Positions 28,823 to 54,869 of a stretch of 64,000 bases of DNA are shown here, piece after piece. The stretch comes from Acarospora socialis (lineage: Eukaryota > Ascomycota > Lecanoromycetes > Acarosporales > Acarosporaceae). Under the pieces are notes generated by a model, which saw only the letters and a program-made list of their open reading frames with translations, had not been told where the DNA came from and ran no database searches. The translations under genes were made by a program, and so were the position numbers. Location of the stretch: assembly GCA_025617375.2 (NCBI GenBank), contig JAMYGW020000004.1, positions 1,054,001 to 1,118,000 of the forward strand, given 5' to 3'. How positions within the stretch are numbered: position 1 is the stretch's first letter; every line of letters begins with the position of its first letter.

Positions 28823-29233
28823 ATGCTTTTTAAAAATTTCAATCATCTAAGAATTGCAAAGAAAATTCAGATCAATGATGCATTCATCTCATTCTTTTGT
28901 GACTATTGTGTTCATTGTGACATCAATTGTTTTGTAATGAAATCTTGATCAAAATGCAATAAATATACTCACTGTGATCATCTGTGTGTCAATGTATTGT
29001 GAAAGTCTCTCAATAAAACTTGTCTTTTGCTTCACAAGAAAATAAGTAAAGCAAACAGTGAATTGACAGTCAAGCACACTGAGCTTGCTGCACTTTTCTT
29101 GAAAATTATGTATCTTCAGAAAACACTGAATCAAACAGACTGCTGTGCTTCACAAAAGACTGACTGTCTTGCTGCTGAACTTAATAGTGATAATGATGAA
29201 ACTGAGAATGAAGATTCTCAAACAATATTGTAA
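28823..29233 (+). pseudogene. Antisense Zn2Cys6-like ORF of element B
   Basis: One frame runs 136 codons from ATG 28823 to the TAA at 29233, interrupted by two TGA codons. It encodes MLFKN, then RIAKKIQI, the cluster CDYCVHCDINC, and after eight positions (one a stop) KCNKY...C, where the second Cys of the second pair reads Tyr. A helical segment ISKANSELTVKHTELAALF and an acidic tail (ELNSDNDETENED) follow. It is oriented opposite to gag-pol of its host element. A TATAAG motif lies about 45 nt upstream. Confidence 0.7.
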
Positions 29234-30043
29234 CTTATCAACTCAATGTCTTCATTCTTCTGAACTAGTATCAACTTCTTTTTTTAAAATGTTGAAGTGT
29301 TCTCATACAGTTCTTAAGATTTTCTCTGAGTTTTCAGATATTTTCTGAGATGTCATAATTTTTTCATTTGACAAAATAGTGAACTTTTTCACTAATCATT
29401 CTCTTCTCTAGAATGTTCTCAACTTTATATTCTTCATTGAATTTGACAGATGTTTTGATGACTTAAAGTGATATAAACTGATCACAATACTGTAACATGA
29501 ACACATGAAATATCAGATGTATTCTTATTCTCTTAAGTAAGTTTAATTTATAGCTTAATCTCTTGATGTTTCATATAATCTTAAATGATTCAATGCTCTT
29601 ATTCTTCAGCTTCTTACTTTTTTCTTTGATTTATATGTTGTCTGTTTTTAAATATATCTTCTTTTCTTCTTCAAACATTTTCATCTTTGTTATTCATCTC
29701 ATCTGCTGTTCAATTCATCTCATCAGATCTTGATGCAGTTTCTTTATCTGAGCAATATTCAGAATTACTTTTTGACTTTGTGATCTGTGTTCTTTGAAAT
29801 CTCATCATATCTTTGAGTTGTAGTCATAGTTCACATAGAAAGATGTTTCTTTCATGATTTCATTTCTTGTGTTGTTGTATGCAAACTGTGTCATTGACAA
29901 TAGTCATACTCAGTCATTCTGATTTCTGTTGACATAGTGTCTCAAATATGTTTTTACTGTCTGATTCATTTGCTTGCTTTGCTTATCTGTCTGTGAATAA
30001 TATACTGATGACATCTTGTGCTTTATTTCAAGTTCTGCTGTGA

Positions 30044-30395
30044 TGTAACATTTTAATTTGAGCTTTCTTGAGTATGTAGAGCTAAGAGTTTGTGCTTATT
30101 GATATAACAGCTGATCTGAAATGATTCTGGTCTTTAACTCTTAGATGATTACTTAAGTTGAACATGATTCTTTTCATAAGAAAAATGATTGTGACTATAT
30201 ACTGAGTCTGCTCATCAGTCTTGTTGTTGAGCTCATTAAGATGACTTATTCATGCAATCTGTTGAGCTTACTCATCAAGTTCACTGTTAAGCATATCAAG
30301 ATGTCATATAATTGCTGTTTAAATATTTCTTGAATATACATCTTTCACATGTACACATTAGTTTGTTCTAAGTCTGTTTCAGCTTAATCATAACA
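30044..30395 (-). repeat. 3' LTR of element A
   Basis: A 352-bp family 1 LTR beginning TGTAACATTT and ending CATAACA on the plus strand. It is preceded by the TGTGA target duplication and followed by the purine-rich (on minus) tract. Confidence 0.9.
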
Positions 30396-30470
30396 CTATT
30401 TTTTTCTTCTCAGACACTAGTTTTCTAGAATTTATATAAGTAAGAGTATTCACATTGTTCACTGTTAGTG

Positions 30471-30884
30471 ATGATGCTTTCTAAAAATTCAAATTGTCTA
30501 AGAATTGCAAAGAAAATTCAGATTGATGACATGTCTACTTTGTTTTTTTGTGACTATTGTGTTTGTTGCAGCATCAATTGTTTTGTAATGAAATTCTGAT
30601 CAAAATGCAATAAGTATATTCATTGTGATTATCTGTGTGTCAGTGTATTGTAAAAGTCTTTCAATAGAACTTATCTTTTGCTTCAAAAGAAAATAAGTAA
30701 AGCAAACAGTGAATTGACAATCAAGCACATTGAGCTTGCTGCACTTTTCTCAAAAATCATACATCTTCAAAAAACACTGAATCAAATGAACTGCTGTGCT
30801 TCACAGAAGATTGACTGTCTTGCTGCTGAACTTAATAGTGATAATGATGAGATTGAGAATAAAGATTCTCAAATAATGTCATAA
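30471..30884 (+). pseudogene. Antisense Zn2Cys6-like ORF of element A
   Basis: The frame starts at the tandem ATGs at 30471/30474 and ends at the TAA at 30884. It has internal stops after CFVMKF and after the cluster. The cluster reads CDYCVCCSINC then KCNKY...C, with the same spacing and the same Cys-to-Tyr change as in B. The second half (ISKANSELTIKHIELAALFSK, then ELNSDNDEIENKD) is uninterrupted. It lies antisense to pol between the chromodomain and the 3' LTR. Confidence 0.7.
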
Positions 30885-31014
30885 CTCATCAACTTAATAT
30901 TGTCATTCTTCTGAACTAATATTGACTTCTTTTCTCAAAATGTTGAAGTGTTCTCACACAGTTCTTGAGATTCTCTTTGAGTTCTCAGATGTTTTCTGAA
31001 ATACTATAATTTTT

Positions 31015-34000
31015 TTATTTGATGAGATAGTGAGCTTTCTCACTAATCATTCTTTTCTTTAAAATATTTTTGATCTCATATTCTTTTTTAAGTTCAACAG
31101 ATGTTTCAGTGATCTGAAGTGATATGAACTGATTGCAATGCTGTAACATGAATGCATGAAATACTGAGTATATTCTCATTTTCTTGAGTAAGTTTAGCTT
31201 GTAGCTTAATTCTTTGATGTTTTGTATAATCTTGAATGATTCTATGCTCTTGTTCTTCAGCTTCTTGCTTTTTTCTTTAGTTTTTATGTTGTTTATTTTT
31301 AAGTATATCTTCTCTTCTTTCTCAAAAGATTTTACATCTATCATTCATTTCATCTGCTGTTCAATTCATCTTGTTAGATCTTGATGCAGTTTTTTCATCT
31401 GAGTGATATCTAAAATTACTTTTTAACTTTGTGATCTGTGTTCTTTGAAATCTTGTTATATTTCTGAATTATAGTCATAATTTACATAGAAAGACATTTC
31501 TTCTGTGATCTCATTTCTTGCATTGTTATACACAAACTGTGCTGTTGACAACAGTCATACTCAGTTATCTTGACTCTTGTTGACATAGTGTCTCAAGTAT
31601 GTTTTCACTATCTAATTTATTCATTCACTTTGCTCATCTGTCTGTGAATAATATGTTATTAACATTTTATGTTTTATTCTGAGTTCTGCTGTGAGTGTTC
31701 TTTAAAACTTGCTTGTAAACAGCTTGTTTCTGTTGATGATAAATTCTTTTGATAGCTCATGACTGTTAATCAATTCTTGCAGTATAATGTACATCAATAC
31801 TGATGCTGTTGCAGTTTCTTTGAATGAAATGAACATTGTGTACTTAGTTAATCTATTCACTATTGTCAATATACTGTCAAATCTCACTTCTCATGCTGAA
31901 TTCTTCAATGATGATAACTTCATAATGAAGTTCATGATAACTGACTTTCATGATGCATTTGATGTGTTCAGTCATGTTACTTCATTATATTGCTTATCTT
32001 AATTGATCTTGTTTCTTTGACATGAATTGCACACAGTGATCATTCTGATGACTCAATTTCTAAAATTGTTAACATTGTATCTTCTCTGCACTAAATCTTC
32101 AGTGCATTTAACTTTTAGATGTTCTCTGATTCTGCTGTAGTGATATATTTTTATAAGTTCTTTGTTTATTAAGAGAGCTTGCTTCATCTTGTACATTGCT
32201 GCTAAGCTCTTCATAAGAACTTCTTTGTTATTTTCACTTAGAATTTCAACATGTATTGTCTGTACATCTTCATGATTCAATTATTTACTCAAGACATTTG
32301 TCTCATCATTCTCATTATTTTTCTTATAATGAATCTGAAACTCATAATCTGTCAACTGCTCTGCTCAACAAATCTGTTATTGATTGAGTTATTTTGTTGT
32401 TGCAAAGTTTCTCAAATTCTTGTGATCTGTATAGATCTAAATTGACTTGCTTGTTTCTGCAAGATAAAATCTTCAATTTTGTAATGCTTTTACTATTGCA
32501 AGAAGTTTTTTGTCATGAATTTTATATCTTTTCTTAAGTTCTGATAGTTTTCTAAATTGATATGTTATGAGTTTTTGCTGTTCATTCTTGATCTGATACA
32601 AACATGCTTTTACTGCAAAATCTAAAGCATCAGTTTTCAGTGTTTTTTTACATGCTGAATTGAGTATTCTCAGATGTGTCATTTTGCTAAAACTTTTCTT
32701 TAATATGTGAAATGCATTCTTCTGCTCTTTATTTCAATGCTATTTTTTACTTTTGTGCATTAAATGTGTTAGTGATTTTGCAATTCTTGCATAGTTTGAT
32801 ACAAACTTTCAATAATAGTTCATTAATTCTAGAAAGACTTGTACTTTCTTGATTTTTTTTGATGTTGATCAGTTTCTAACTGCTTTTATCTTCTTTAAAT
32901 TCTTCTTGATCTGTTCAGATCAAATTACATAGTTTAAAAACTTAACTTTCTTGATCTTGAATCTGCTTTTTGATTTTTTTATATACAAGACTTTCTCATT
33001 GAGCTTTGTTAATATCTTACACACATACTCTCAATATTTCTCAAGATCTTCTGAGTATATCAGAATATCATTAAGATATGTGATCACAAAATTATCAAGA
33101 TATTCTCTCAACATATTGTTGATCAATTTCTGAAAGATGACTGAAGCATTTTTCAGTTCAAATAACATAATGATGTATTTGTAATATCTGTATCTTGTTT
33201 AAAATGTTGTTTTTCATTCTTCATCTTCTTTCATTCTGACTTAGTAATAGACATTCTTAAGATCTAAGCTTGTAAATTACTTAGTCTTTTTTAACTGATT
33301 CTGCAACTCTTTTATCAGCAATAGAGAATAACTGTTTCAATGAGTTATCTCATTGAGTTGTCTGTAATCAACACATAGTCATTTCTTGTCATTTTTCTTT
33401 AATACAAACAGAATTGAATATTCTGCTGATGATTTTGATGATTTTATGAATTTTCTTTTCAGATTCTTGTCAAGATAAACTTTAACTTTCTTGAGCTGAT
33501 TCTTGCTCATTGAGTATAATGACATTTACTTAGATTGCTTTTCATTCAATAGTGATATCTCATGATTTCATAACTTATATTCTGATAAGCTCATCTCTGA
33601 TTGTTCAGAAATCTTATATGTGTCTTTAATCACACATATTTCTTTTATAACTCAGTCAATCTTCAGATTTCTCTCACACAATTAGAGCATCTTTAGCACT
33701 GCATTGTATTTGATCAATCTCATAACATCAAATGTTATCTCTTGTGAGTTTTCAAGAATTGAGACTTTCACACAGATTTTCTCATCAACTCTTTCAATGA
33801 CTTCATTCATCATTTGTATGTTGAATGAACAGCACACTCACTGTATCTCTAATTTCAACATGCTGACTGTTTTTTGATTCATGATATTACTGTCTGCTCT
33901 GAAATTCATCAATGTGTTGATTTGATATTCATTGATCATAATTTTGATTTATATTTAATGATCATTGTCTTGTCTTTGAGACACCACTAACTTCTTATTC
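31015..34000 (-). pseudogene. pol remnant of element A (PR-RT-RH-IN-chromodomain)
   Basis: Recognisable pieces on the minus strand are a protease-like TLMN..ADSNIM segment near 33900; RT with YLND in place of YLDD near 33067-33078; RNase H (TDALDFAVKACLYQI, then FRKLSELKKRYKIHDKKLLAIV); the integrase zinc region (YHYSRIREHLKVKCTEDLVQRR); the integrase core (FDSILTIVNRLTKYTMFISF, RNKLFTSKF); and a chromodomain start (YEIKNILKKRMISEKAHYLIK, where the expected Trp is a TGA). The order RT-RH-IN-chromodomain identifies a Ty3/gypsy chromovirus-clade element. Stops are scattered throughout and no product is possible. Confidence 0.85.
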
Positions 34001-35856
34001 TCTAGTCTTGTTGAGAAAGCTCTTCATTTTTTGACTTACTTAATTGTTCAACTTGTCTTCAAAGTTCTTAAAATCATCTGAGTTTTCTTCTGATCATAAG
34101 ATTTACATATTTTAGACTGTACTGCTCAATGTGTCTTTCTGAATGTAGTTAAAGTTCATACTGATTGTACTTCATCTGTAACTGACTCTCAATGACTTTT
34201 ACTCTTTGCAGAAATTTGAGTGACATATACTCTTCACTGAAGATTCATCTGTCTTCATTCTGCATGATACATTCTTCAGATAGATATATCTTAATTTTGT
34301 AACTCTTCATTTTTCAATTAAGAGATTTAAACAATGTCATGTTGTTGCTGCTGAAACATTCATTTTTAACAGCTATCATTAGCTCTTTTAGTTGATCATA
34401 TGTCTCTTGTGTCTTTGCATTTTTGTGTTGTGTCTCTTTTCTCTGAGCACTTAAATTCTTTTTGATCTTTGTTCAATACTTTCTTGAGAGTTCTGTTTCA
34501 GCATCATTCAAACTTTCTTTCACAAGTGTATTACTATCAGAAAATATTCAGAATTCATCAATCTGAGATTCATGATCATCAGTTTCTTCAATGTCATCTT
34601 CAAGAGCATTATCTTCTTTCTTGACATCAAGAACTCTTTTCTTGATAAGAATAGTTAATTTTCTTTTGTAAATTGATCAACTTGTTGTGTCATATTCATT
34701 CTTCATATCTTTGTGCAGTTTTTGAGAGTATCATCTGACTTCATCTTTTGCACTCATGTGTACTCTGCACATGTCATTGTAACAGACTGTTCAGCTGAGA
34801 GTGTCATGCACTACACATGTATTCTTCTTGATTGTCACTACAACATTTTTTCTTTTCATTTGAGATCTGTTGCATTTTCAGACAAGATGTTCAGGTTTTT
34901 CACAGTTATAATACATTTACATCTTGTTTCACAATGTTATCTGAAACTTAGTGAATCACTCTGTTTAACATTCATACTCTGTTCATTTAGTCTTTCATGA
35001 TTTTTAACAGCACTTCTTAATTACATCAAGATTCATAGAGTCTGTTCTTTTATGTCTTATCAATAAAACATATCACTTAATTCACAGTCAGAAGCTTTCT
35101 TCTTGATCTTTTATCATAGATGACATTCAATATTCTTTTTATTTCATCTGTCATTTTCATTGACAACTGTCAATATTAATACTCAGATCAATCATTCTCT
35201 GAAGATTGTCTGATCATTCTGCTCAGATTATTTTGTCTTTGATGAACTTTCTTAACTCACAATAGTACTGATAGATGAGTGCTTTGTTATTTCATCTAAT
35301 AAGTATCATTAATCACTGAAACTTCATGACATATACTGCTGCTGATTCACACTGTCACAAAATATGAACTCATCTCTTTGCTGCTCTTTCTTCATTAATT
35401 ACTTCAAAGACTTTTCTTAATTCTTTCTTAAATCATATGTAGTCATTGAACATAAACTTCATGTCTGCATTGCATTTCTTGTACTTTTTTTCTAGAAATT
35501 CATGTAGCTTGAGATCAACTCAATTGAAAACTGCATTCACAAAATAGATTGCTGCAAACAGTGTCTTTTCTTGATTGATTTGAAACTTCAGTTGATTGAA
35601 TTCAATATATAGATCAAGTTTAGTTACAAAGACTCACAACTTTTCTCTTTCTTCATCAAAGATATTTGATATCTGTATCTTGAGTGCACTCAGAGATAGT
35701 TGTATAGCTTGAGTTGACATCATCACTGATTGTATCATCATTCTACTCAGAGTAAATAATAGAGATGAGTTCATCTGAACTTATTTCAAGAACAAAGTTG
35801 AGATGTTTTTCTGTGTGTCAGACATCATACTCATTATATTGTAAGAATGTTCAAAG

Positions 35857-36208
35857 TATAATATTCTAATCTGAGCTTTCTCAGATATGTAAAACTAAGA
35901 GTTTGTGCTTATTGATATAATGACTGGTCTGAAACAGTTCTGGTTTTTAACTCTTAGATGATTATTTAAGTTGAACATGATTTTTTTCATAAGAGAAATG
36001 ATTGTGACTATATACTGAGTTCACTTGTCAATCTTGTCATTAAGTTTGTTGAGGTGACTCACTCATGCAACTTGTCAAGCTTGCTTGTCAAGCTCATCAT
36101 CAAGCATGTTGAGATGTCACATGACTGCTGTCTAAACATTTCTTGAATATATGTCTCTTGCATGTATGCATCAGTTCACTCTAAGTTCATCTCAGCTTGA
36201 TTATAACA
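35857..36208 (-). repeat. 5' LTR of element A
   Basis: A 352-bp family 1 LTR directly adjoining gag of element A. The TGTGA duplication follows at 36209-36213. Confidence 0.9.
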
Positions 36209-36213
36209 TGTGA

Positions 36214-39200
36214 GCATTTCTCAAAACTTACTTGTAAACAGCTTGTCTCTGTCAGTGATAAACTCTTTTGATAGTTCATAATTGTTAATTAATTCTCTTA
36301 GTATTGTATATGTCAATATTGATGCTGTCACAGTTTCTTTGAATGAAATGAACATTGTGTATTTGATTAATCTATTCACTATCATCAATATGCTGTTGAA
36401 TCTCACTTCTCATGTTGAATTCTTCAACAATGATAGCTTCATAATGAAGTTCATGATAACTGACTTTCATGATGTATTTGATGCATCTAGTTGCATTACT
36501 TCATCATATTATTTATCTTAATTGATCTTGTTTCTTCAGCATGAATCATACACAGCAATTATCTTGATGATTCAATTTTGAAGATCACTAACATTGTGTC
36601 TTCTTTGCACTAAATTCTCAGTGTATTTAACTTCTAGATGTTCTTCAACTCTGCTGTAATGATACATTTTAATGAGTTTTTTATCTGTCAAGAGAGCTTG
36701 CTTTATCTTGTATATTGCTGCTAAATTCTTCATGAGAACTCTGTTGTCATCTTTGCTGAAAATTTCAGTGTGTATCATCTGTATGTCTTCATGATCAGAT
36801 TATTTACTTAAGACATTTACTTTGTCATTTTCATTATTTTTCTTGTAATGAATCTGAAATTCATAGTCTGCTAACTGTTTTGTTCAATAAATCTGTTGTT
36901 GATTGAGTTGCTTTGTTGTTGCAAAGTTTCTCAGATTCTTATGATCTGTGTAGATTTGAATTGACTTGCTTGTTCTTGCAAGATAAGATCTTCAATTCTG
37001 TAATGTCTCTATTATTATAAGAAGTTTTTTGTTATAAATTTCATATCTTTTCTTAAGTTCTGATAGTTTTCTAAATTGATATGTTATGAGTTTTTGCTGT
37101 TCATTCTTGATCTGATACAAACATGCTTTTACTGCAAAATCTGAAGCATCAGTTGTCAGTGTTTTCTTGTATACTGAATTGAGTATTCTCAGATGTGTTG
37201 TTTCACTAAAACTTTTCTTTAATATGTGAAATGCATTCTTCTGCTCTTTATTTCAATGTTATTTTTCACTTTTGTGTGTCAAATGCATCAGCAGTTTCAC
37301 AATCTTTGCATAGTTTGATACAAATTTTCAATAATAATTCATCAATTCTAGAAAGATCTGTACTTTCTTGATTCTTTTCAGTGTTGATCAGTTTCTGACT
37401 ACTTTTATCTTCTTTGAATTCTTCTTGATCTGTTCAAGTTAAATTACATAGTTTAAAAACTTAACTTTCTTGATTTTGAATCTGCTTTTTGACTTTTTCA
37501 CATAGAGAGCTTTCTCATTGAGCTTTGCTAATATTCTTTGCACATGTTCACAGTGCTGCTCAAGATCTTCTGAATATATCAGAATATTATTGAGATATGT
37601 GATCATAAAATTATCAAGATATTCTTTCAACATATTGTTGATTAATCTTTGAAAGATGACTGAGACATTCTTCAGCTCAAATGACATGATGATGTACTTA
37701 TAATGTTTATATCTTGTTCAAAATGCTGTCTTTCACTCTTCATCTTCTTTCATTCTGACTCAATAATAAATGTTTTTAAGATCTAAGTTCATGAATCATT
37801 TAATTTTGTCTAATCAGTCTTGCAACTCTTCTATCAACAGTAAAGAATAATTATCTTGATGAGTTATCTTGTTGAGTTGTTTGTAGTCAACACATAGTCA
37901 TTTCTTGTCATTCTTTTTTAATACAAACAGAATTGAGTATTCTGCTGATGACTTCAATGATTTTATGAATTCTCTCTTTAGATTCTCATCAAGATAAGTT
38001 TTAACTTTCTTGAGTTGGTTTTTGCTCATTGAATACAATGACATTCACTTAGATTGCTTTTCATTCAATAGCAGTATTTTGTGATTTTATAACTTATATT
38101 TTAATAAGCTCATTTCTGATTGTTCAGAAATCTTATATGTGTCTTTGATTGCACATATTTCTTTTATAATTCAGTCAATCTTCAGATTTTTTCTGCACAA
38201 TCAGAACATCTTTAGTACTATATTGTATTCAATTGATCTCATAACATCAAATATTATCTCTTGTGAGTTTTCAAGAATTGAGACTTTCACACAGATTTTC
38301 TCATCAATTCTTTTGATAACTTCATTCATCATTTGTATGTTGAATGAACAGTGTGCTCACTGTGTCTTTAATTTCAACATGTTGACTGTTTGTTGACTCA
38401 TGATATTACTGTTTACTTCAAAATCTATTAATGTGTTGATCTGATGTTCATTGATTGTAATTTTGATTCATATTCAATGATCATTATCTTATCTTTAAGA
38501 CATCACTAGCTTCTTATTCTCTAATCTCATCAAGAGAACTTTTCATTTTTTGACTCACTTAATCATTCAGCTCATCTTCAAAGCTCTTGAAATCATTTTG
38601 ATTTTCTTTTGATCATAAGATTCACATACTTTAGACTATATTGCTCAATGTGTCTTTCTGAATGTAGTTGAGATTCATACTGATTATACTTCATCTACAA
38701 CTGACTTTTAAAGATTCTTACTCTTTGCAGAAATTCAAATGATATATATTTTTCACTGAAGATTCATCTGTCTTCATTCTGTGTGATATATTCTTCAGAT
38801 AAGTATATCTCAATCTTGTGACTCTTAATTTTTCACACAAGAAATTCTGATATTGATTCTTTCATGACTATTTATATGTCTCTCATTAAATTGTCAAACT
38901 CTTTGCATATCTCTACTTTCTGATCATGAGTTCTCTGTTTTTTTCTCAGTATCTTTTTGCTGATTGATGTTGTTTTTCTTTGAGCATTTAGATTTCTTTC
39001 AATCTTCATTCAATATTTCTTTGAGAGTTCTGTCTCAGCATTGTTCAAACTTTCTTCTGTGAGTGTATTGCTATCAGAAAATATTCAAAATTTATTAATC
39101 TGAAATTCATGATCATCAGTTTCTTCAATGTCATCTTTAAAAACATTGTCTTCTTTCTCAGCATCAAGAACTCTTTTCTTGATGAGAGTAGCTAATTCTT

Positions 39201-40380
39201 TTTTGTAATTTGATTGACTCATTGCATCATATCTATTCTTTGCATCTTTGCATGATTTCTGAGAATATTATTCAGCTTTATCTTTTGCACTTATGTGTAC
39301 TTTGCACATGTTATCATAACAGACTGTTCAGTTGAGAACATTATGCACTATGCATGTATTCTTATTAACTATCACTGCAACATTTTTTCTTTTTATCTGA
39401 GATCTGTTGCATTCTTAAACAAGATGTTCAAATTTCTTACAGTTATAACACATTCACATCTTGTTTCACAGTGTCATCTGAGACTTAGTGAATCACTTTG
39501 ACTAACATTCATGCTTCACTCATCTAGTCTTTTATGACTTCTGATGACACTTCTTAATTATATTGAGATTTATAGAATCTGTCTTTTTATACTTTATTAA
39601 TAAAATATATTACTTCACTTATGATCAGAAGCTTTCTTCTTGATCTTTTATCATAGATGATATTCAATATTCTTTTTGTTTCATTTGTCATTCTCACTGA
39701 CAACTATAAATATTAATACTCAGATCAATCATTTTCTAAAGATTGTCTGATTGTTCTGCTTGAGCTATTTTGTCTTTGATGAACTTTCTTAACTCACAAT
39801 AATACTGATAGATGAGTGCTTTATTATTTCATCTAATAAGTGTCACTAACTACTGAAACTCTGTGATGTATACTGCTGCTGATTCACTCTGTTGCAAGAT
39901 GTAAACTTGTTTCTCAGCTGTTCTTTCTTCATTAATCACTTCAAAGACTTTTTTTAATTCTTTCTTAAATCATGCATAGTCATTGAACATAGACTCTGTG
40001 TCTGCATTGTGTTCTTTGTATTTCTTTTTTAGAAATTCATGCAGCTTGAGGTCAACTCAATTGAAGACTGCATTCATAAGATAGATCATTGCAAACAATG
40101 TCTTTTCTTGATTAATTTAAAACTTCAGTTGATTAAATTCAATGTACAGATCAAGTTTAGTCACAAAGATTTGCAGCTTTTCTTTCTCTTCATCAAAGAT
40201 ATTTGATATCTGTATCTTAGATGCACTCAGAGATAGTTGTATCATCAAGACTGACATCACTAATTGTGTCATTATTCTATCTGAAGTAAATGATAAAGAT
40301 AAGTTTGTCTGAGCTTGTCTCAAAAACAAAGTTGAGATGTTCTTCTGTGTGTTAGACATCATACTCATTATATTGTAAAA
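36214..40380 (-). pseudogene. gag-pol remnant of element B (right-hand part)
   Basis: From high to low coordinates: gag start (ISTLFLRQAQTNLSLS and FDEEKEKLQIFVTKLDLYIEF at 40398-40117), a knuckle region near 39400-39450, protease near 38400, and RT including FELKNVSVIFQRLINNMLKEY. In the RT, YLNN at about 37581-37598 replaces the catalytic YLDD. RNase H follows near 37100, the integrase zinc region at 36778-36572 and the integrase core at 36406-36221. The remainder of the integrase C-terminus and the chromodomain lie left of the nested element at about 29300-30038. Confidence 0.85.
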
Positions 40381-40390
40381 ATGTTCAAAG

Positions 40391-40741
40391 TGTAACATTC
40401 TAATCTAAGATTTCTTGAGTATGTAGAACTTAGAATTTGTGCTTATTGATATAATAACTGATCTGAAATGATTCTGATCTTTAACTCTTAGATGATTATT
40501 TAAGTTGAACATGATTTTTTTCATAAGAAAAATGACTGTGACTATATACTGAGTTGCTTGCTGATCTTGTTGTTGAGTCTGTTGAGATGACTTGCTTATG
40601 TAATCTGTTGAGCTTGCTTGTCAAACTCATTGTCAAACATATTGAGATGTTACATGACTGCTGCCTAGATATTCTCTGAATATACACTCTTCACATATAT
40701 ACATCAGTTCATTCTAAGTTCATTCTGACTTGATCATAACA
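40391..40741 (-). repeat. 5' LTR of element B
   Basis: A 351-bp family 1 LTR adjoining gag of element B; the likely target duplication GAAAA follows at 40742. Confidence 0.9.
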
Positions 40742-42344: not shown

Positions 42345-42652
42345 TGTTACATTCTAGTACTGAGCTTTCTTGATAATGTAGAACTAAAAATTTTGACTTA
42401 TTGATATAAAGATTACTCAGACTTCTTGATGATAAATCAGTAACAATGTATTGAATTGATAATGAAAGTTAAACACAATTGTTTTCATAGAGAAAATGAT
42501 TTTACTATATAGAGATTTGCTTGATGTCTTGTTGTTGAGTGATTAACTCATTGCTTACTGTCTCATCATCAAGCTGTCAAACTCATATCAAGACATATAC
42601 TTCTTGAGACAGTTCTCAGAACTTTCTAGCTCATTCAGATCTGACTATAACA
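42345..42652 (-). repeat. 3' LTR of element E
   Basis: A 308-bp family 2 LTR, beginning TGTTACATTC and ending CTATAACA on the plus strand, with a purine tract in element sense next to it (42653-42677). Confidence 0.85.
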
Positions 42653-42726
42653 TCATTTTTTCTTTTTTAGACACTAGTTTCTAGAGTCTATTTAAGTAAA
42701 AGTATATATATTCATCATCATCAGCA

Positions 42727-43125
42727 ATGATGCTTTCTAAAAATCTTAATTGTCTAAGAATTGCAAAGAAAATTCAAATTGATGACTTGTTGACTTTCTT
42801 TTTCTGTGACTTCTGCATTTCATGCAATTTTGACTGTTTCATTATGTCAGATAGTCATTCTAAGTGTGACAAGTGTACTTGTCATGATCATTTCTGCATT
42901 CAGATGTTGTAAAAGTCTCTTGACAGAACTTGTTTCTCTTTTTGTAAGAAAATAAGCAAGATAAACAATGAATTGACAGCTCTCTCTGTAAAGATTGTTT
43001 GAATGTAAAAAACTCTTGATTAAGTCAATTATTATACTTTAAAAAAAACTGACTGTCTTGCTGCTGAGCTTGATAGCAATAATGATGATATGAATTCTGA
43101 AGAGAATTCTTTGAATATTCAGTAA
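42727..43125 (+). pseudogene. Antisense Zn2Cys6-like ORF of element E (best-preserved cluster)
   Basis: A 132-codon frame from ATG 42727 to the TAA at 43125. The first 61 codons are open and contain all six cysteines: CDFC-ISCNFD-C, nine residues, C-DK-C-TCHDHF-C. That is CX2CX6CX9CX2CX6C, the spacing of fungal binuclear zinc clusters. Stops then interrupt the linker (TTG TAA AAG, probably from an Arg CGA codon) and coil. The C-terminus keeps the acidic tail (ELDSNNDDMNSEENS). A TATTTAAG motif lies about 40 nt upstream of the ATG. The start context MLSKN..CLRIAKKIQIDD is the same in all copies. Confidence 0.75.
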
Positions 43126-43229
43126 CTTATCAATTTGATGTTTTCATTCTTTTAAAATTCTATCATCATCTTTTCTCAAAATGTTGAAGTGTTCTTGCAC
43201 AGTTCTTAAGATTCTCTTTAGATTTTCAG

Positions 43230-46039
43230 ATATTTTCTGAAGTATGATATTCTTTTTATTTTATGAGATAGTGAACTTTTTCACTAATCATTTTCTTTCT
43301 CAGAATGTTCTTAACTTCATATTCTTAATCAGGTTCAATTGATGTTCTGATGATTTGAAGTGATATGAATTGATTGTATTGTTAAAGCATTGATGCATGA
43401 AATACTGAGTGTATTCTTATGTTCTTAAGTAAATTTAACTCATAACTTATTTTTTTGATGTCTCTAACAATCTTAAATGATTCTATGCTCTTGCTGTTCA
43501 ATTTTTTGCTTGCTTGCTTTGTTTACATGTTGTTAATTCAAAAATATACTCTCTCTTCTTTCTGAAAAGATTTTCTGAACATCTTTTTGCACATTAGCTG
43601 CTCAATTCTTCTCTGAAAATTGTTATGCAGTTTCTTTATACTTGTAATATTCAGTACTGTCTGTTGACTCTGTGATTCATGCTGCAGTAGATCTCATTAT
43701 ATCTTTAAATTGTATTTATAGTTTATGTAGAATGATGTCTTTTTCATGATTTTGTTTCTTGCATTGTTGTATGCAAACTGTGTCATAAACAGCAGTTGTA
43801 CTCAGTTGTCTTGATTCTTATTGACATAGTGACACAAATACATTTTGATTATCTGATTCATTCATTTGCTCTGTTTATCTGTCTGTGAATGATATACTGT
43901 CAACATTTTATGTTTTATTTTAAGTTCTACTGTGAGTGTTTTTCAAAATTTGCTTGTGAACAGCTTATCTCTGTTGATGATAAACTCTTTTAATAGTCTG
44001 TAATTGTTAATCAATTCTTGCAGTATGATGTATATCAATACTGATGTCATCACAGTTTCTTTGAATGAAATGAACATTGTGTACTTTGTCAGTTTATTCA
44101 CTATAATCAATATATTATTGAATCTCACATCTCATGCTGAATTCTTCAATGATAAAAGCTTCATTATGAAGTTCATAGTAACTGATTTTCATAACTCACT
44201 CAGCACATCAATTTACATTATCTTATCATATTATTTATTTCTCTAAATCTTGTTCTTTCAATATAAATTGCATCTGACAATCATTTTGATGATTTAATTT
44301 CTAAAATTACTGACATCATATCTTCTCTGCACTAAGTTCTCTGTGCATTTAACTTTCAGATGTTTATGAGTTCTGTTTGTATAACATTTCTGTATAAGTT
44401 CTTTGTTTATTAAGAAAGCATTCTTCATCTTATATGTTGCTGCTAAGTTCTTTATGAGAATTTCTCTGTTGTCTTTGCTTAGAATTTTTGTATGTATTTG
44501 TTTCACATTTTCATGATTAAGTTATCTGCTCAAAACATCTACTTCATTATTCTTATTATTCTTTCTGTAATGAATTTGAAATTCAAAGTCTGTTAACAAC
44601 TCAGTTCAGTAAATCTGTCATCTGTTTAGCTTCTTGATTGTTGTGAAGTTTCTTAAATTCTTGTGATTCATAAAGATCTGAATTGACTTGCTTATTTCTG
44701 TAAAATAAGATCTTCAATTTTGCAGTGCTTTCACTATCACAAGTAGTTTCTTATCATGAACTTCATATCTTTTCTTGAGTTCTGATAGTTTTTTAAATCA
44801 ATAAATTATGAATTTTCTTTGTTCATTCTCAATCTAATACAGACATGCTTTTACTGTGAAATCTGAAGTGTCAGTTTTCAGTATTTTCTTGCATGCTGAA
44901 TTGAATATTCTCAGATGTGCTATTTCACTAAAACTTTTCTTTAATATGCAGAATGCATTCTTCTGTTTTTGATTTCAATATTATTTTTTATTTTTTTGTG
45001 TCAGTTGCATGAGAGATTTCATTATTCTTAAATAGTTGAATACAAACTTTCAGTAATAGTTCACTAGTTCTAAAAAAATCTGTACTTTCTTGATCTGTAT
45101 TGATGTTAGTTAGTTTCTAACTGTTATAGTCTTTTCTGAATTTTTTTCAATGTAGTCAGATCAAATAATATATTCTAGAAACAGTACTTTCTGAGTTTTG
45201 AATTTGCTCTTTGACTTTTTCATTTACAAAGCTCTTTCTTTTAACTTTTCTAATATCTTGTACACATGTCTGCAGTGTATCTCTAGATCTTATGAATATA
45301 TCAGAATGTTGTTAAGATATATGATCACAAAGTCATTGAAATATTCTCTGATCATATTATTGATCAGTTTTTAAAAGATGACTGAGACATTCTTCAGTTC
45401 AAATGACATAATAGTATATTCATAGTGTTCATATCTTGTTCAGAACACTGTCTTTCATTTTTTTTCAGCTTTCATTCTTACTTAATAATAGATATTTTTA
45501 AGATCTAAGTTCATGAATCACTTAGTCTTGTCTAATTAATTCTGCAACTCTGCTATCAAAAGTAGTGAATAATTATCTTGTTTAGTTATATTGTTGAGTT
45601 GTCTGTAGTCAATGCATAAATATTTCTTGTCATTCTTCTTTGATATGAACAGAATCAGATATTCTGTCAGTGATTTTGAAGATTTAATGAATTCTCTTTT
45701 AAAATTCTCATCAAGATAGTTCTGAACTTTCTTGAGTTGATTTTTGTTCATTGAATATATTGACTTTCATGTTGATTGTTTTTTCTTCAATAGCAGTATC
45801 TCATGATTTCATGATTTGTACTCTGACAAACTCATTTCTGATTGTTCAGAAATTTTATATGTGTAATTTGTTGTGTATATTTCTTTTCTTGTTCAGTCAA
45901 TCTGTGAGTTCTGTTGCTGCAGTCATGATATATTCAGTATGACATTGTATTTCATTGACTTCATGATGTTCAACATCATCTTCTCACATCACTCAGCAAT
46001 GTTAGTAGTAATATGAACTTGCTGATTAATGTGCACATA
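43230..46039 (-). pseudogene. pol remnant of element E
   Basis: Minus-strand pieces: RT start (NQLKKVQNYLDENFKREFIK...LCIDYRQLNNIT, 45751-45536), YLNN near 45307-45318, RNase H near 44700-44900, integrase zinc region (TNRTHKHLKVKCTENLVQRR, 44506-44294) and integrase core (FNNILIIVNKLTKYTMFISF...RDKLFTSKF, 44128-43943). The C-terminal region reaches the antisense ORF. The protein is more divergent from A-D than those are from one another, in line with the separate LTR family. Confidence 0.8.
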
Positions 46040-46400
46040 TGTTACAATCATATTTAAAGAGAAAGAAACTCACAAGTCTGTGATCAAGAGTTCACTCAGA
46101 GCATATACAAGAAAAACTGCTAGACAGCAGTCACATAACAGCACAACAGCTTGACAGTGAGCAGACAAGCTGAAAACTTAATTTCTTGATATTAAAACAT
46201 TAAAACATCAAGAGTGCTCAATGCAGAGACATTAAGCACATTCTATATAGTAGAGTTGTTTTTTTTATAAAAATGATCATGTTCAACTTAAATAACTATT
46301 TAAAAGTTAAAGATCAGAACTGTTTCAGATCAGTCATTATATCAATAAGTACAAACTTTTAACTCTACATACTTGAGAAAGCTTAGATTAGAATATTATA
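46040..46400 (+). repeat. 5' LTR of element C with TATA box and putative self-priming site
   Basis: A 361-bp LTR. A TATATAG box at 46244-46250 lies about 36 nt before ATGTTCAA (46279-46286), a plausible RNA start. The bases immediately after the LTR (46401-46410) are CTTTGAACAT, whose reverse complement starts ATGTTCAA. Confidence 0.85.
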
Positions 46401-46422
46401 CTTTGAACATTCTTATGATATA

Positions 46423-47400
46423 ATGAGTACAGTGTTTGACACACAGAAGAATGTCTTAACTTTGTTCTTGAGACAAGTTCAGACAAACTCATCTTTACTA
46501 TTTACTTCAAATAGAATGACAACACAATCAGTGATGTTAGTCTTAATAATACAACTATCTGTGAGTACATTTAAGATACAGATACTGAATGTTTTTGATG
46601 AAGAGAGAGAAAAACTGTGAGTCTTTGTGACTAAACTCAATTTATATATTGAATTCAATCAGCTGAAGTTTCAAATCAATTAAGAGAAAACATTGTTTGC
46701 AGTGATCTATCTTGTAGATGCAGTCTTCAATTAAATTAATCTCAAACTGCACAAGTTTCTGAAAAAAGAGTACAAAGAATGCAATGCAGACACAGAGTCT
46801 ATGTTCAATGACTATGCACAGTTTAAAAAAGAATTGAGAAAAACTTTCAGAATAATTAATGAAGAAAGAGCAGCAGAGAAATGAGTTTACATTTTGTGAC
46901 AGAATGAATCAGCAACAATATACATCACAAAGTTTCAGTATTTAGCAGCACTTATCAGATGAAACAATGAAGCACTTATTTATCAGTATTATTGTGAATT
47001 GAGAAAGTTCATCAAGAACAAGATAGTTCAAGCAGAATAACTGAACAATCTTTAGAGAATGATCAATCTGAATATCAACATCAATAGTTGTCAATGAAAA
47101 CAACAGATAAAACAAAGAGAATATTAAATACTATTTATGATAAAAGATCAAGAAGAAAGCTTCTGATCATGAATGAAGTGATATGTTTTATTAATAAAAT
47201 ATAGAAGAATGAACTCTATAAATCTTAATACAATCAAGAAGCATCATCAAAAGTCATAAAAGACTAAATAAACAGAGTATGAACATCAGTCAGAGTGATT
47301 CACTAAGTCTTAGATAACACTGCAAAATAAAACACAAATATATTATAACTGCAGAAAATCTGAACATCTTACTTAAGAATGCAACAGATTCTGAATAAAA
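46423..47400 (+). pseudogene. gag remnant of element C
   Basis: The frame begins MSTVFDTQKNVLTLFLRQ and continues with KIQILNVFDEEREKL, then a stop. Further gag similarity (FNQLKFQIN, TLFAVIYLVDAVFN in the next frame segments) leads to a CCHC-type knuckle near 47341-47385 with the pattern Y-N-C-x2-K-x-x-H-x4-C. The first knuckle Cys is lost. Confidence 0.75.
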
Positions 47401-50400
47401 AGAAAAAATGTTGCAGTGATAGTTAAGAAGAATACACATATAGTGCACAACATTCTCAGCTGAACAGTCTGTTACAATGATATATGCAGAGTACACATGA
47501 GCACAAAAGATAAAGTTGAATAATATCTTCAGAAATCACACAGAGATGTGAGAAACAGATACAATGAGAAAAGTTGATCAACATACAAAGAAGAATTAAC
47601 TATTCTTATCAAGAAAAAAGTTCTTGATGTTGAGATTGAAGAGACTGATGCTTGAGAAACTCAGATAAAAAAAGACTACAGTGACAGCATCTGACAAGCA
47701 CTGAATTTGAATGTGAATCAGAAAGAAATCAACAAATAAGAAGTTGACATGAGACTGAAGACAGCATGTCAGCACTTTAAGAATCAACATTAAGTGTTGA
47801 AAGAAGAAAAGCTTCAGTTTGAGAAACAAGAGCTTGAGCAAGAAATGCAAGCTTGAAAACAGAAAGCACAATGCAAAAGTACAAAAAAACAAAAGACATA
47901 TGATCAGCTAGAGAAGCTGATGATAGCTGTTAAAGATGAATGTTTTAACAGCAACAACACAGTATTGTCAAAATCTTTTGTGTAAAAGATCAAGAGTCAC
48001 AAAATCAAGATATACTTATCTAAAGAATATATTATGCAGAATGAAGACAGATAAATTTTCAACAAAGAATATATATTACTCAAATTTCTGCAAAGAGTAA
48101 AAGTCTTTGAGAGTCAGTTGCAGATAAAGTATAATCAGTATGAATCTCAACTACACTCAGAAAAATGCATTGAGTGATACAGTCTAGAATATGTGAATCT
48201 TATGATCAAAAGAAAATCAAAATGATTTCAAGAACTTTGAAGATGAGCTGAATGATCAAATGAGTCAAAAAACAAAGAGCTCTCTTGACAAGACTAAAGA
48301 ATAAGAAGTTAGTGACATTTTAAAGATAAAACAATGATCATTAAATATAAATCAAGATTACAATCAACAGAAATCAAATCAACACATTAATAAATTCTGA
48401 AGCAGACAGAAATATTATGAATCAATAAATAGTCAACATGTTAGAATTAGAGACACAGTGAGTGCACTGTTCATTCAACATACACATAATGAATGAAGTC
48501 ATCAAAAGAATTGATGAGAAAATCTGTGTGAAAGTCTCAATTCTTGAAAACTCACAAGAGATAACATTTAATGTTATGAAATTAATCAGATATGATGCAG
48601 TACTAAGAATGCTTTAATTATGTGAAAGAAATTTGAAAATTAATTGAGTTACAAAAGAAATATATATAATCAAAGACACATACAAGATCTTCAAACAATC
48701 AGAAATGAGCTTATCAGAGTATAAGTCATGAAATCATGAAATACTGCTATTGAATAAAAAGCAATTTAAGTGAATATCATTATATTCAATGAGCAAAGAT
48801 CAACTCAAGAAAGTAAGAATTTATTTTGATGAGAATCTCAAAAGAAAATTCATAAAATCATCAAAATCACTGACAGAATATTCAATTCTGTTCATGCTGA
48901 AGAAAAATGACAAAAAACAACTATGTGTTGACTACAGACAACTCAATGAGATAACTTATTAAGATAATTATTCTCTATCACTGATAGAAGAATTGCAAAA
49001 TTAATTAGACAAGACTAAAAGTTCATGAGTCTAGATCTTAAGAACATCTATTATCAAGTCAGAATGAAAGAAGACAAAGAGTGAAAGACAGCATTTTAAA
49101 CAAGATATGAACACTATGAATATACTGTCATGTCATTTGAGTTAAAGAATGTCTCAGTCATCTTTCAAAGATTAATCAATGACATGTTGAGAGAATATCT
49201 CAATGATTTTATAATCATGTATCTCAATAATATTCTGATATACTCAGAAGATCTTGAGAAGTATTAAGAGCATGTGCACAAGATATTGACAAAGTTCAAT
49301 GAGAAAGTCTTGTATGTGAAAAAATCAAAAAACAGATTCAAAATCAAGAAAGTTAAGTTTCTAAATTATGTGATTCAATCTGAACAAATCAAGAAGAATT
49401 TAAAGAAGATAAAAGTAGTCAGAAACTGATCAACATCAAAATGAATTAAGAAAGTACAGATCTTTCTAAAGTTAATAAACTATTATTAGAAGTTTATATC
49501 AAACTATGCAAGAATTGTGAAATCACTGACACATTTAATGCACAAAAGCAAAAAATAGCATTGAGATTGAGAACAGAAGAATGCATTTCACATATTAAAG
49601 AAAAGTTTTAGTGAAACAGCACATCTGAGAATACTCAATTCAGCATGTAAAAAGACACTGAAAACTGATGCTTCAGATTTCACAGTAAAAGCATATTTAT
49701 ATTAGATTGAGAATGAGCAACAGAGACTCATAATATATTAATTTAGAAAGCTATCAGAACTCAAGAAAAGATATGAGATTCATGACAAAAAACTTCTTGT
49801 GATAGTAAAGACACTACAAGATTAAAGATCTTATTTCACAAAAATAAACAAATCAATTCAGATTTACACAGATCACAAGAATCTGAGAAACTTCACAATG
49901 ACAAAACAACTTAATCAATAACAGATTCATTGAGCAGAGCAGTTGACAGATTATGAATTTCAAATTCATTACAAAAAAAATAATGAAAATAATAAAACAA
50001 ATGTCTTGAGCAGACAATCTGATCATGAAGATATACAAACAATATACATTAAAATTCTCAGCAAAGACAACAACAGAATTCTCACAAAAGACTTAGTAGC
50101 AATGTACAAGATGAAGCAAGCTTTCTTGACAAATGAAGAACTCATTAAAATGTGTTACTACAACAGAGTTGATGAACATTTAAAAGTTAAACACACTGAG
50201 AATTTAGTGTGAAGAAGATGCAATATTAATGATTTTTGAAATTGAATCATCAAAATGATTGCTGTATGCAATTCATGTCAAAGAAACAAGATTAATTAAG
50301 ATAAACAATATGATGAAGTAATACAACTAAACACATCAAATACACTGTGAAAGTCAGTTATCATAAACTTCATTATGAAGTTATCACTGTTTAAGAACTC

Positions 50401-51413
50401 AGCATGAAGAATGAGATTTGACAGTATATTGATGATAATGAATAAATTGATTAAGTACACAATGTTCATTTCATTCAAAGAAATCACAACAGCATCAATA
50501 TTGACATACATCATACTGTGAAAATTGATTAACAATCATGAGCTATTAAAAGAGTTTATTATCAACAGAGACAAACTGTTTACAAGCAAGTTTTGAAAAA
50601 TACTCACAGCAGAACTTGAGATAAAACACAAAATATTGATAACATATTATTCACAGACAGATAAACAGAGTAAATGAATGAATTAAATAATAAAAACATA
50701 CTTGAGACACTATGTCAATCAGAGTCAAGATGACTGAGTATGACTGTTATTAATGATACAGTTTGCATACAACAATGCAAGAAACAAAATCATGAAAAAA
50801 ATGTCTTTCTATGTGAACTATGACTATAACTCAAAGATATAACAAGATTTCAAAGAACACAGATCACAGAGTCAAAAAGTGATTTTGAATATCACTCAGA
50901 TAAAGAAACTGCATCAAGATCTAATGAAATAAATTGAACAGCAGATGAGACAAACAGCAGAGATAAAATCATTTAAGAAAGAAAAAAAGATATATTTAAA
51001 AATAAACAATATACAGATTAAGAAAAGAAGCAAGAAACTGAAAAATAAGAGCATTGAATCATTCAAGATCATATGAAACATCAAAGAATTAAGTTATGAA
51101 CTAAACTTACTCAAGAAAATGAGAATACACTCAGTATTTCATGCATTCATGTTACAGCATTGCAATCAGTTCATATCACTTCAAATCACTGAAACATCTG
51201 TTGAATTCAAAAAAGAATATGAAGTTAAGAACATTTTAGAAAAGAGAATGATTAGTGAGAAAGTTCATTATTTCATAAAATGAAAAAATTATAATATCTC
51301 AGAGAATATCTAAAAATTCAGAGAAAATTTCAAGAACTGTGTGAGAATACTTCAACATTTTGAAAAAAAAAGTCAATATTAGTTCAGAAGAATGATGACA
51401 TGAAGTTGACAAG

Positions 51414-51638
51414 TTATGATATTGTTTGAAAATCTTCATTCTCAATCTCATCATTATCACTATTAAGTTCAGCAACAAGACAGTCAGTTTTCTGCATGAC
51501 ACAATGATCTGTTTGATTCAAAGTCTTTTGAAGATGCATTATCTTGGCAGCAAGAGCATCAAGAACTGCATTTGCATCACTTATTTTCTTTACAATTCTT
51601 AGACAATTGAAATTTTTAGAAAGCATCATTGCTGACAA
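51414..51638 (-). pseudogene. Antisense ORF of element C lacking the zinc cluster
   Basis: An open 74-codon frame on the minus strand reads MLSKNFNCLRIVKKI then directly SDANAVLDALAAKIMHLQKT and the acidic tail (ELNSDNDEIENED). Compared with A, B, D and E, about 55 codons containing the whole Cys cluster are missing, in frame. The junction falls between two AAGAAAAT-type direct repeats present in the other copies, so a slippage or recombination deletion (or a processed transcript) explains it. The residual product would be a short coil plus acidic tail without a DNA-binding part. Confidence 0.7.
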
Positions 51639-51704
51639 TAGAAATTGTTATATACTCTTGCTTGAATAGACTCTAGAGAACTAGTGTCTAAAGAGAAAGA
51701 ATGA

Positions 51705-52065
51705 TGTTATAATTATATCTAGAAAGAAAGAAACTTGTGAGTCTGTGATTAAGAGTTCATTCAAAGTGCATACAAGAAGAACTGCTAGACAGCAGTTACA
51801 TAACAGCACAACAGCTTAACAGTGAGCAGACAAGCTGAGAGCTTGATCTCTCAACATTGAGACATCAAGACATCAAAAGTGCTCAACACAGAGACATTGA
51901 GCACATTCTATATAGTAGAATTGTTTTTCTTATGAAAATGATTGTGTTCAACTTAAATAACTATCTAAGAGTTAAAGATCAGAATCATTTCAGATCAGCT
52001 GTTATATCAATAAGTACAAACTTTTAGTTCTACATATTTGAGAAAACTCAGGTTAGAACATTACA
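51705..52065 (+). repeat. 3' LTR of element C
   Basis: A 361-bp LTR beginning TGTTATAATT and ending ACATTACA, followed by the ACATA duplication. It differs from the 5' copy at many sites that are C/T or G/A differences. Confidence 0.9.
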
Positions 52066-52070
52066 ACATA

Positions 52071-53916
52071 GTTTCTGTCTGTTATAAATACTCTTTCAGA
52101 TTGTGATGCAGACATTAGTTATAACTGCATTTTTCTTATTAAATCTTTTGAGATGTAGTTGTTGATCACTTTCAAGTCAACTACTACATAGATCATCTCA
52201 ATCAGTCAATCTTTTACTTTTATTTTCATCTCAATTCATAGCTTGTATTTCTCATAATCATGAGACATTAAAAGCTTCTTGTTCTCTAGTCTTGTTGAGA
52301 AAGCTTGCAGTTTTTTAATTGAACTGTCTTCTCAGCTCTTCTTCATATCTTCTTGAATCATTTGAATTTCTTCTCTAGAACAAGTAGATTAATATACTTT
52401 TTGCTGTGTTTTTCAATATACTGTTCTGAATGTAATCATGATTTATACTGATTGTACTTTATTTGCAATTAATCTTGCATTCTCTTGACTCTGTTAAGAA
52501 ACTCTTTCAGTATATATTCATCAGAGTGAATTCATAATTCTCTGTTTCTGATGATGTATTTTAGAAATAGATCAATTTTGATTTTGTGTAATTTTGTTTT
52601 TCACATCAACATCTTAGACATATCTTGCTGCATTGTTCAATCATTTTGCTGTAAAGCTTTTAGCTCTTCTTTCAGTTGTTTTTTGCAATTCAGTGCATTT
52701 TGTTGACACTCTTCTAACATCACTAGATCTCAATCACACTTATTGCAATATTATTTCATTAATTTCTGATCTTTATCTTCTGAGAAGCTTTTTTCTGTGC
52801 AGATGTCAGAACTTAAGTAGTGACATAGTGACTCTCAATTTTCTTCAAATTTCTCAAATTCAAAATCTATCATTAACTCAAGATTCTGAATCTTCTGAGT
52901 TTCATGAGTATTGATTTTTTTGATCTCATTTAATTCTTCTTTAGTGAAAATAATTAATTTTTTTGTCTGAGTTAATTAATCTGTCATGTTGTAATCATCT
53001 TTCTTATTGTTTCTTAATCATTGTGAATATCATCTGACTTCATCTTTACTGTTCATATGTGTTCAACATATATTGTCATAACATGCTGTTCAACTCAGAG
53101 CATCATGCACTATACATATATTTTTCATTGTTTTCTTGCTTGCTACTGCAGCATCTTTTCTCTTACAATGAAACTTCTTGCACTGTCTAACAAGATGTTC
53201 TGTTATTCTGCAGTTGAAGTATTTATATGTTTTTTTGTTGTGTTGTTGTCAAGACTTAAAAACTTGTTCACATTAATATTTCTGCTTCATTTATCTGTCA
53301 TATTCTGAGATTTGACAATACTTCTTAATCATGTCAAGATTCATAGAGTTCAAATATTGTAATCACAACAATCTCTTATACACATTTCTCTGAGCATAGT
53401 CAGATACAAATTCTTCAGTTTGAAATTTCTTCTTCTTTTGTTGTCTTTTTCATGTACAATTATCAATGTTAATCATTATGTTGATTGTTTCTTGTAACTT
53501 ATTAGATCAATTGAATCTGACTATTTCATTCTTAATGAAATCTTTCAGTCTTCAATAGAACTGAGAATTCAAAGCATCATTGTTTCATTTCATTAAGATC
53601 ACAACTCATTGAAATTCTGCTGCATATTGTGCTGTTAATTCATTCTGATGTAAAATATGAATGTATTGTTTAGTTGCACACTTCTCATTAATTATCTCAA
53701 AGATTTTTCTTATCTCTTCTTTAAACTTCTTAAAGCTATTAAACATAGACTCAGTGTCTTCTTGCTTCTTCTTGAAAGTCTTGTTGATGAACTTTCTCAT
53801 GAATAAGTCAATTCAATTAAACATCATATTTTTAAGATAGAATACTGCAAACAGAATCTTGTCTGCATTGCTGAGAAACTTGTATACATTAAATTTGATA
53901 TACAAGTCAAGTTAAA
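52071..53916 (-). pseudogene. gag and linker region of element E between C and D
   Basis: A minus-strand gag segment at 53800-53606 reads FINKTFKKKQEDTESMFNSF then IFEIINEKCATKQYIHILHQ and TAQYAAEFQ, a retrotransposon gag core. A knuckle-like zone lies near 53180-53220. This piece connects across the D insertion to the gag N-terminus at 60139-60314 and across C to the protease region at 46039. Confidence 0.7.
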
Positions 53917-54267
53917 TGTAATGTTCTAACCTGAGATTTCTCAAGTATGTAGAACTAAGAGTTTGTGCTTGTTGATATAACAGCTGGTCTGAAATGATTC
54001 TGAACTTTAACTCTTAGATGATTACTTAAGTTGAACATGATTGTTTTCATAAGAAAAATGATTCTACTATATAGTGAGCTTGCTTGTTGATCTTGCTGTT
54101 GAGCTCATTGAGGTGACTTGCTCATGCAACTTGTTGAGCTTGCTTGTCAAGCTCACTGTTGAGCATGTTGAGGTGTTATGTGACTGCTGTCTAAATATTT
54201 CTTAAATATACACTTTCTGTGCATACACATCAGTTTGTTCTAAGTCTGTTCTAACTTAATCATAACA
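53917..54267 (-). repeat. 3' LTR of element D
   Basis: A 351-bp family 1 LTR beginning TGTAATGTTC and ending CATAACA on the plus strand, with the purine-rich tract (minus sense GAGAAGAAAAGAATAG) adjoining at 54268-54283. Confidence 0.9.
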
Positions 54268-54345
54268 CTATTCTTTTCTTCTCAGGTGCTAGTTTTCTAG
54301 AGTTTATATAAGTGAGAATATTCACATTGTTTGCTGTCAGTGATG

Positions 54346-54756
54346 ATGCTTTCTAAAAATTTCAATTGTCTAAGAATTGCAAAGAAAATTCAAATTGGTG
54401 GTGTGCTTGTCTTGTTCTCTTGTGACTATTGTGCTCATTGTGACATCAACTGTTTTGTAATGAAATCTTGATCAAAATGCAATAAGTGTACTCATCATGA
54501 TCACTCATGTATCAGTGTATTGTGAAAGTCTCTCAATAGAACTCATCTTTTGCTTCAAAAGAAAATAAGTAAAGCAAACAGCAAATTAGCAGTCAAGCAC
54601 ATCAAGCTTGCTGCACTTTTCTCAAAAGTCATGCATCTTCAGAAAACACTGAATCAGATGAATTGTTGTGCTTCACAGAAGACTGACTGTCTTGCTGCTG
54701 AACTTAATAGTGATAATGATGAAACTGAGAATGAAAATTCTCAAACAATGTCATAA
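54346..54756 (+). pseudogene. Antisense Zn2Cys6-like ORF of element D
   Basis: A 136-codon frame from ATG 54346 to the TAA at 54756 with two TGA interruptions. All six cysteines are present: CDYC-AHCDIN-C, eight positions (one TGA), C-NK-C-THHDHS-C. The following 67 codons are open: KKISKANSKLAVKHIKLAAL and the acidic ELNSDNDETENEN tail. TTATATAAG lies about 40 nt upstream. Together with E this is the clearest view of the cluster. Confidence 0.75.
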
Positions 54757-54869
54757 CTTATTGACTCAATATTGTCATTCTTCTGAACTAATATCAACTT
54801 CTTTTCTCAAAATGTTGAAGTGTTCTTGTGCAGTTCTTGAGATTCTCTTTGAGTTTTTAGATATTTTCT

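Follow-up and report, generated by a model that had tools for sequence, protein, structure and literature searches.

What is the small frame that lies opposite pol at positions 42727-43125 of this 64,000-nucleotide stretch of the Acarospora socialis genome (hereafter the window; C4:1054001-1118000 in a genome of 31.1 Mb and 38 contigs), and has it been kept as a protein? The AT-rich island at ~28-60 kb of the window is a nest of gypsy elements, which we named A to E from a self-comparison of the window, and in all five a frame is found antisense to pol, just inside the 3' long terminal repeat (LTR) and next to the pol end. The initial annotation had placed such a frame between the chromodomain and the 3' LTR of each of five elements, and both its coordinates and this layout are borne out. 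We conclude that the frame is almost certainly a real protein-coding gene, and propose that it would represent an extra gene of a chromodomain gypsy group, set antisense to pol between the pol end and the 3' LTR polypurine tract. Its place, orientation and cysteine (Cys) motif are read directly from the DNA, as follows:

42727-43125, plus strand: antisense frame of element D, the feature under study; CX2CX6C-X9-CX2CX6C, coil, acidic tail; four internal stops
54343-54756, plus strand: antisense frame of element E; first ATG at 54343, second at 54346; six Cys, X8 linker; two internal stops
28823-29233, plus strand: antisense frame of element A; five Cys kept, with tyrosine (Tyr) in place of the fifth of the six; two internal stops
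30471-30884, plus strand: antisense frame of element B; five Cys kept, with Tyr in place of the fifth of the six; two internal stops
51638-51414, minus strand: antisense frame of element C; an internal deletion has removed the zinc part, coil part kept; no internal stop

These patterns agree with those first reported (X9 at 42727-43125, X8 at 54346-54756, five of six Cys at 28823 and 30471, a shortened frame at 51638-51414). In element E, one of the eight linker positions between the Cys triplets is itself a stop, and the window copies of the frame are dead. Every 4-kb bin of 28001-60000 holds zero CpG, against 175-307 in each of the preceding bins and 140 in the following one, and TpA/ApT is low there (0.59-0.70); the pattern is hypermutation at CpG rather than classical CpA-type repeat-induced point mutation. 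LTR pairs were compared for elements B, C, D and E, with the pair of element A left out. The two LTRs of E differ by 47 transitions and 0 transversions over 349 sites, those of B by 73 and 0 over 348, those of C by 53 and 0 over 360 and those of D by 39 and 1 over 309, which pools to 212 transitions versus 1 transversion in 1366 sites. Because the pairs differ almost solely by transitions, elements B to E are recent insertions struck by C-to-T mutation, at CpG and somewhat elsewhere. In the window frames, arginine (Arg) codons CGT/CGC have turned into TGT/TGC (Cys) or CAT/CAC (histidine, His); the surplus Cys are therefore former Arg and Cys must be counted cautiously, a warning for similar annotations, in which CpG decay generates false Cys. 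Since the window copies are recent and hypermutated, their mutual conservation is weak evidence of function. The argument that old decay makes conservation a proof of function was accordingly dropped, all four tested LTR pairs differing almost only by transitions; what does uphold the annotation's claim of a functional frame is purifying selection on the frame, measured by transversions as described below.

The genome was searched with part of the database protein P0007 (best 150 of 343 candidates scored) and with an open copy of the frame (best 150 of 317 candidates scored). The copy set, drawn from 96 sources (the window and loci L001-L095), comprised 104 places, reduced to 101 by dropping those with fewer than ~110 query residues and to 100 by removing a duplicate. 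A chromodomain lies downstream on the opposite strand in 98 of these 100 copies and was not found in two; a window-type LTR lies upstream of the frame in 94, at a modal distance of 78 nucleotides (nt). In a reverse test, which started from the best 150 of 362 chromodomain candidates, 13 loci not seen among the frame matches listed were chosen by eye and three were examined; the frame was present in all three, whole in one and with internal deletions in two. Cys occupies the six zinc columns in 97/97, 98/98, 98/98, 95/98, 72/98 and 93/98 copies, with Tyr wherever it is missing, and a seventh Cys follows the coil in 98 of the 100. The remaining Cys-rich columns mostly mix Cys with His, a sign that Arg has been lost.

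The open copy, at C14:276308-276808 (locus L031, ATG 5309, stop 5812, plus strand), encodes 167 residues with all six Cys (CX2CX6C-X10-CX2CX6C). Its CpG content is normal and the LTRs of its element share 99.06% identity over 319 nt. The initial annotation had named intact or young relatives without the frame or its Cys as what would speak against it; this element, with an open frame, six Cys and near-identical LTRs, points the other way. The arrangement relative to pol is clearest in this less damaged element, where the antisense gene and pol overlap tail to tail by 53 nt. On the opposite strand come SH3_Tf2-1 and Chromo (5760-6200), then ribonuclease H (RNase H), integrase and reverse transcriptase (RT) pieces in broken frames, with RVT_1, RT_RNaseH, Integrase_H2C2, rve, SH3_Tf2-1 and Chromo all matched above Pfam cut-offs. 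The carrier is thus a chromodomain Ty3/gypsy element with RT, RNase H, integrase and chromodomain between its LTRs. Four more copies were listed without stops. Three of them, on C5, C3 and C6, can be read as the frame and keep all six Cys; L092 holds no CpG, L094 holds 2 and L093 holds 16. At C14:525486 (L095, C14:524700-526100), in DNA of normal CpG content (69 CpG in 1401 nt), the coil is open and the zinc part is no longer readable as such.

Selection was measured on transversions, which CpG decay cannot produce, in the part of the frame outside the pol overlap. Summed over pairs of five divergent representatives, transversions at codon positions 1, 2 and 3 number 259, 176 and 348; the third position exceeds the mean of the first and second by a ratio of 1.60 (bootstrap 1.31-1.97), which none of 5000 within-codon permutations matched, the pairs being not independent. 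Single pairs give ratios from 1.21 to 3.00. The weakest, L031 versus the window copy at 42730, is reached in 832 of 5000 permutations, and L031-L077, L031-L003 and L031-L092 in 316, 71 and 53. The frame is therefore under purifying selection as a protein. A 121-residue open frame also runs on the pol strand straight after the pol stop, opposite the zinc part (L031:5394-5759, minus strand). Coding on that strand was considered as the source of the conservation and rejected by coordinate reasoning: its second codon positions coincide with the fastest-changing sites, so it does not account for the codon-position pattern.

Against 5.8 billion proteins, three profile searches matched 58, 64 and 93, together 161 distinct identifiers. 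Of these relatives, 98 carry the six-Cys pattern CX2CX6C-X(5-25)-CX2CX6C, with a linker of 8 in 70 of the 98 and a range of 7-14; many of those without it, in uncounted number, are short or damaged. Identities reach down to ~30%. A loose C-terminal motif, antisense to the pol tail in L031, occurs in 81 of the 161 relatives and in 64 of the 98 with six Cys, and 24 of the 161 extend further, into residues whose L031 counterpart lies antisense to the chromodomain; from these sequences, a good part of the relatives seem also to sit on gypsy elements. One relative is listed with its organism, a hypothetical protein of Sporormia fimetaria, a Pleosporales ascomycete. Another, P0144, carries the precomputed family PF27583.1, which did not turn up in the Pfam copy used.

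The encoded protein measures ~135-190 residues. By prediction it begins with a short helix at the N terminus, followed by a Zn2Cys6-like domain (pattern CX2CX6C-X7..18-CX2CX6C, its second loop of RRGRP-like sequence), a ~70-residue helix and an acidic stretch of aspartate and glutamate. Zn2Cys6 proteins have the spacing CX2CX6CX(5-12)CX2CX(6-8)C; with X8 in 70 of the 98 relatives and X10 in the open copy, the frame agrees with it, and one in-genome copy, L092 (X18), falls outside. In the AlphaFold2 model (predicted local distance difference test score 83.7) two short helices form in the Cys region and a long helix spans residues 67-135, in agreement with the coil-like helix and following acidic stretch noted at the outset; this helix looks like a coiled coil. 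A structural comparison of the model returned Zn2Cys6 domains in 14 of the 15 rows of its second listing, at weak resemblance, the nearest neighbours being HAP1, PUT3, LEU3, PPR1, GAL4 and Pho7. We judge a Zn2Cys6-like fold likely.

Upstream of the frame, a block between the polypurine tract and the ATG is common to the five representatives, with invariant CTAGT and TAT(A/T)TAAG. In the window its TATA-like part lies at:

54305-54312, plus strand: TATATAAG, upstream of the element E frame
42689-42696, plus strand: TATTTAAG, upstream of the element D frame

In 94 of the 100 copies the motif TAT[AT][AT]AA has its start 20-70 nt upstream of the frame, a descriptive figure as the copies are related; of 600 control windows, each 57 nt long and taken from within the frames, one contains it. 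The block could start an antisense transcript. Strong conservation in the five representatives takes in the edge of the LTR, the polypurine tract and the TATA-like motif as one continuous block (54268-54312 and equivalents).

The elements that carry these frames are nested in two groups. The elements and the LTRs of D were delimited by the self-comparison:

~28391-30042 and 36209-40741: element A, split by element B
30043-36208: element B, inside element A
46039-52063: element C, pol on the plus strand, inside element D
42345-60623: element D from LTR to LTR, outermost of the second group, split by elements C and E
53917-60133: element E, pol on the minus strand, inside element D; TTAAA at both flanks
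42345-42653, minus strand: 3' LTR of element D
60315-60623: 5' LTR of element D
53917-54267, minus strand: 3' LTR of element E
59783-60133, minus strand: 5' LTR of element E
54268-54284, minus strand: putative polypurine tract of element E, assigned by position; pyrimidine-rich on the plus strand, adjoining the 3' LTR
54775-57397, minus strand: probable remains of element E pol, stop-to-stop pieces resembling a chromodomain and RT, assigned by comparison with the L031 domains

Outside the island, two neighbouring frames at 5901-7505 (plus strand) both match DUF5427 (PF10310) and are probably a single host gene with an intron or a frameshift.

What, then, would the protein do? We propose that transcription of the gene most likely starts at a promoter of TATA type just inward of the polypurine tract, that the gene product would act in trans as a dimer, that the dimer would bind nucleic acid, and that it may regulate either transcription from the LTR of the element itself or what becomes of the element's copies. 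Taken whole, with regulation of the element included, the reading as a Zn2Cys6-like regulator with a coiled coil, encoded by the element and acting in trans, has in our judgement about an even chance of being right. Several observations weigh against it, or against a plain Gal4-type domain within it. None of the 21 frames or relatives scanned reaches the Pfam Zn_clus (PF00172) gathering score of 21 bits; the family is listed below the cut-off for 10 of the 21, with a best score of 18.6 bits. Loop 1 is poor in lysine and arginine (mean 0.42 versus 1.80 in loop 2, over the 98 relatives), and among 49 relatives selected for a loop 2 of undecayed appearance it holds none in 32, one in 14 and two in 3; the first loop of Gal4-type proteins is basic and contacts DNA. 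The Gal4-type binuclear cluster of the initial annotation is thus retained in its six-Cys pattern but not in family score or loop 1, and because Zn_clus stays below its cut-off we call the domain Zn2Cys6-like and do not file it as a PF00172 member. Element C, finally, was inserted recently despite an antisense frame without the zinc part, and hence the protein was not needed in cis; a trans-acting product fits this, and a dispensable one would fit it too.

The Pfam score and the loop 1 composition, together with the conserved place of the gene on the element, would also suit an accessory protein that has a zinc-cluster-like fold and is no sequence-specific transcription factor, such as a chaperone of RNA or complementary DNA, an integration-targeting partner or a blunter of host defence. 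However, the closest structural matches are DNA-binding domains, loop 2 is basic, and the compact zinc part with coil and acidic tail is reminiscent of transcription factors, so that we hold such a protein to be unlikely, if deserving of serious thought. A product directed at the host, which would help the element to persist by modulating host transcription or silencing, would have its model in HBZ of human T-cell leukemia virus type 1 (HTLV-1), which is similar in position and strand (passages of PMC11963269); we regard such a product as improbable. Copy-number control by antisense transcription, in which the RNA and not the protein matters, could account for the antisense orientation of the conserved TATA-like block, but selection on protein is evident from the codon positions and from the conservation of six Cys, which makes this reading very improbable. 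A chance frame or mutational artefact without function might be read into the stops of the four long window frames and the several Cys-rich columns that are decayed Arg; against it stand the third-position transversion excess, the open copy in a young element and the six-Cys pattern in relatives so divergent, and recurrence in 100 in-genome copies and 161 database proteins is more than chance. On the codon-position test and the open copy we rejected it, and give it next to no credence. The trans-acting regulator that we favour might be widened to a whole fungal chromodomain gypsy lineage with a dedicated antisense-promoter gene for a zinc-cluster LTR regulator, a counterpart of different fold to HBZ and plant TRP28, with zinc-less elements such as C living on the regulator of others; this broader picture is plausible yet doubtful.

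Should this hold, retrotransposons of fungi carry on their opposite strand a gene for a transcription-factor-like protein of their own, and regulation at the level of the element could be tested in simple laboratory hosts. Some of the small zinc-cluster proteins annotated as hypothetical in fungi may then be retrotransposon genes. Short 'SWESLDRTR' zinc-cluster proteins are common among the hypothetical proteins of fungal genomes. Literature searches that each required every one of their terms listed, by title and abstract, no paper on a zinc-cluster gene of this antisense kind in gypsy elements of fungi, which is no proof of its being unpublished. A figure legend in PMC2864245 shows an additional open reading frame (ORF) of unknown function among fungal gypsy element structures; its available passages give no strand, motif or sequence for that ORF, and the words 'antisense', 'opposite' and 'zinc' are absent from the paper's main text, which makes comparison impossible. 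The same three words have 0 occurrences in the available text of 'LTR Retrotransposons in Fungi' (PMC3248453), and PMC3538342, from its passages, is unrelated.

The product resembles fungal Gal4-type Zn2Cys6 factors (PF00172) in its Cys spacing, the two predicted short helices of its Cys region and its structural neighbours; it differs in its sub-threshold Pfam score, its lysine- and arginine-poor loop 1, its small total length and its origin as a retrotransposon antisense gene. HBZ, a basic leucine zipper protein, belongs to another virus group and host and has another domain. Like the fungal frame it is antisense to gag-pol, and it is described as a nuclear regulatory protein in passages of PMC11963269, according to which an opposite-strand regulator is a design known from plant gypsy elements and HTLV. 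The same passages report antisense ORFs with a TRP28 domain (PF04195) in plant Retand gypsy elements, and also in Grande and RIRE2, for which the author suggests DNA binding and a regulatory role; in Retand the ORF lies between pol and the 3' LTR in nearly all recent copies. The fungal gene shares with it this position, the antisense orientation to gag-pol and, presumably, the role (PMC11963269, in part). Retand, however, is a plant element of a non-chromovirus lineage whose TRP28 ORF occupies a pol-3' LTR region of 2.9-6.6 kb (PMC11963269, in part), whereas the fungal element carries a chromodomain, a Zn2Cys6-like domain and a compact region, and the families that Pfam scans listed for the 21 frames or relatives did not include TRP28. 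Since domain, element lineage and host kingdom all differ, the Retand antisense gene, by this comparison the nearest described arrangement, is a parallel to the fungal gene, and not a family to which it belongs.
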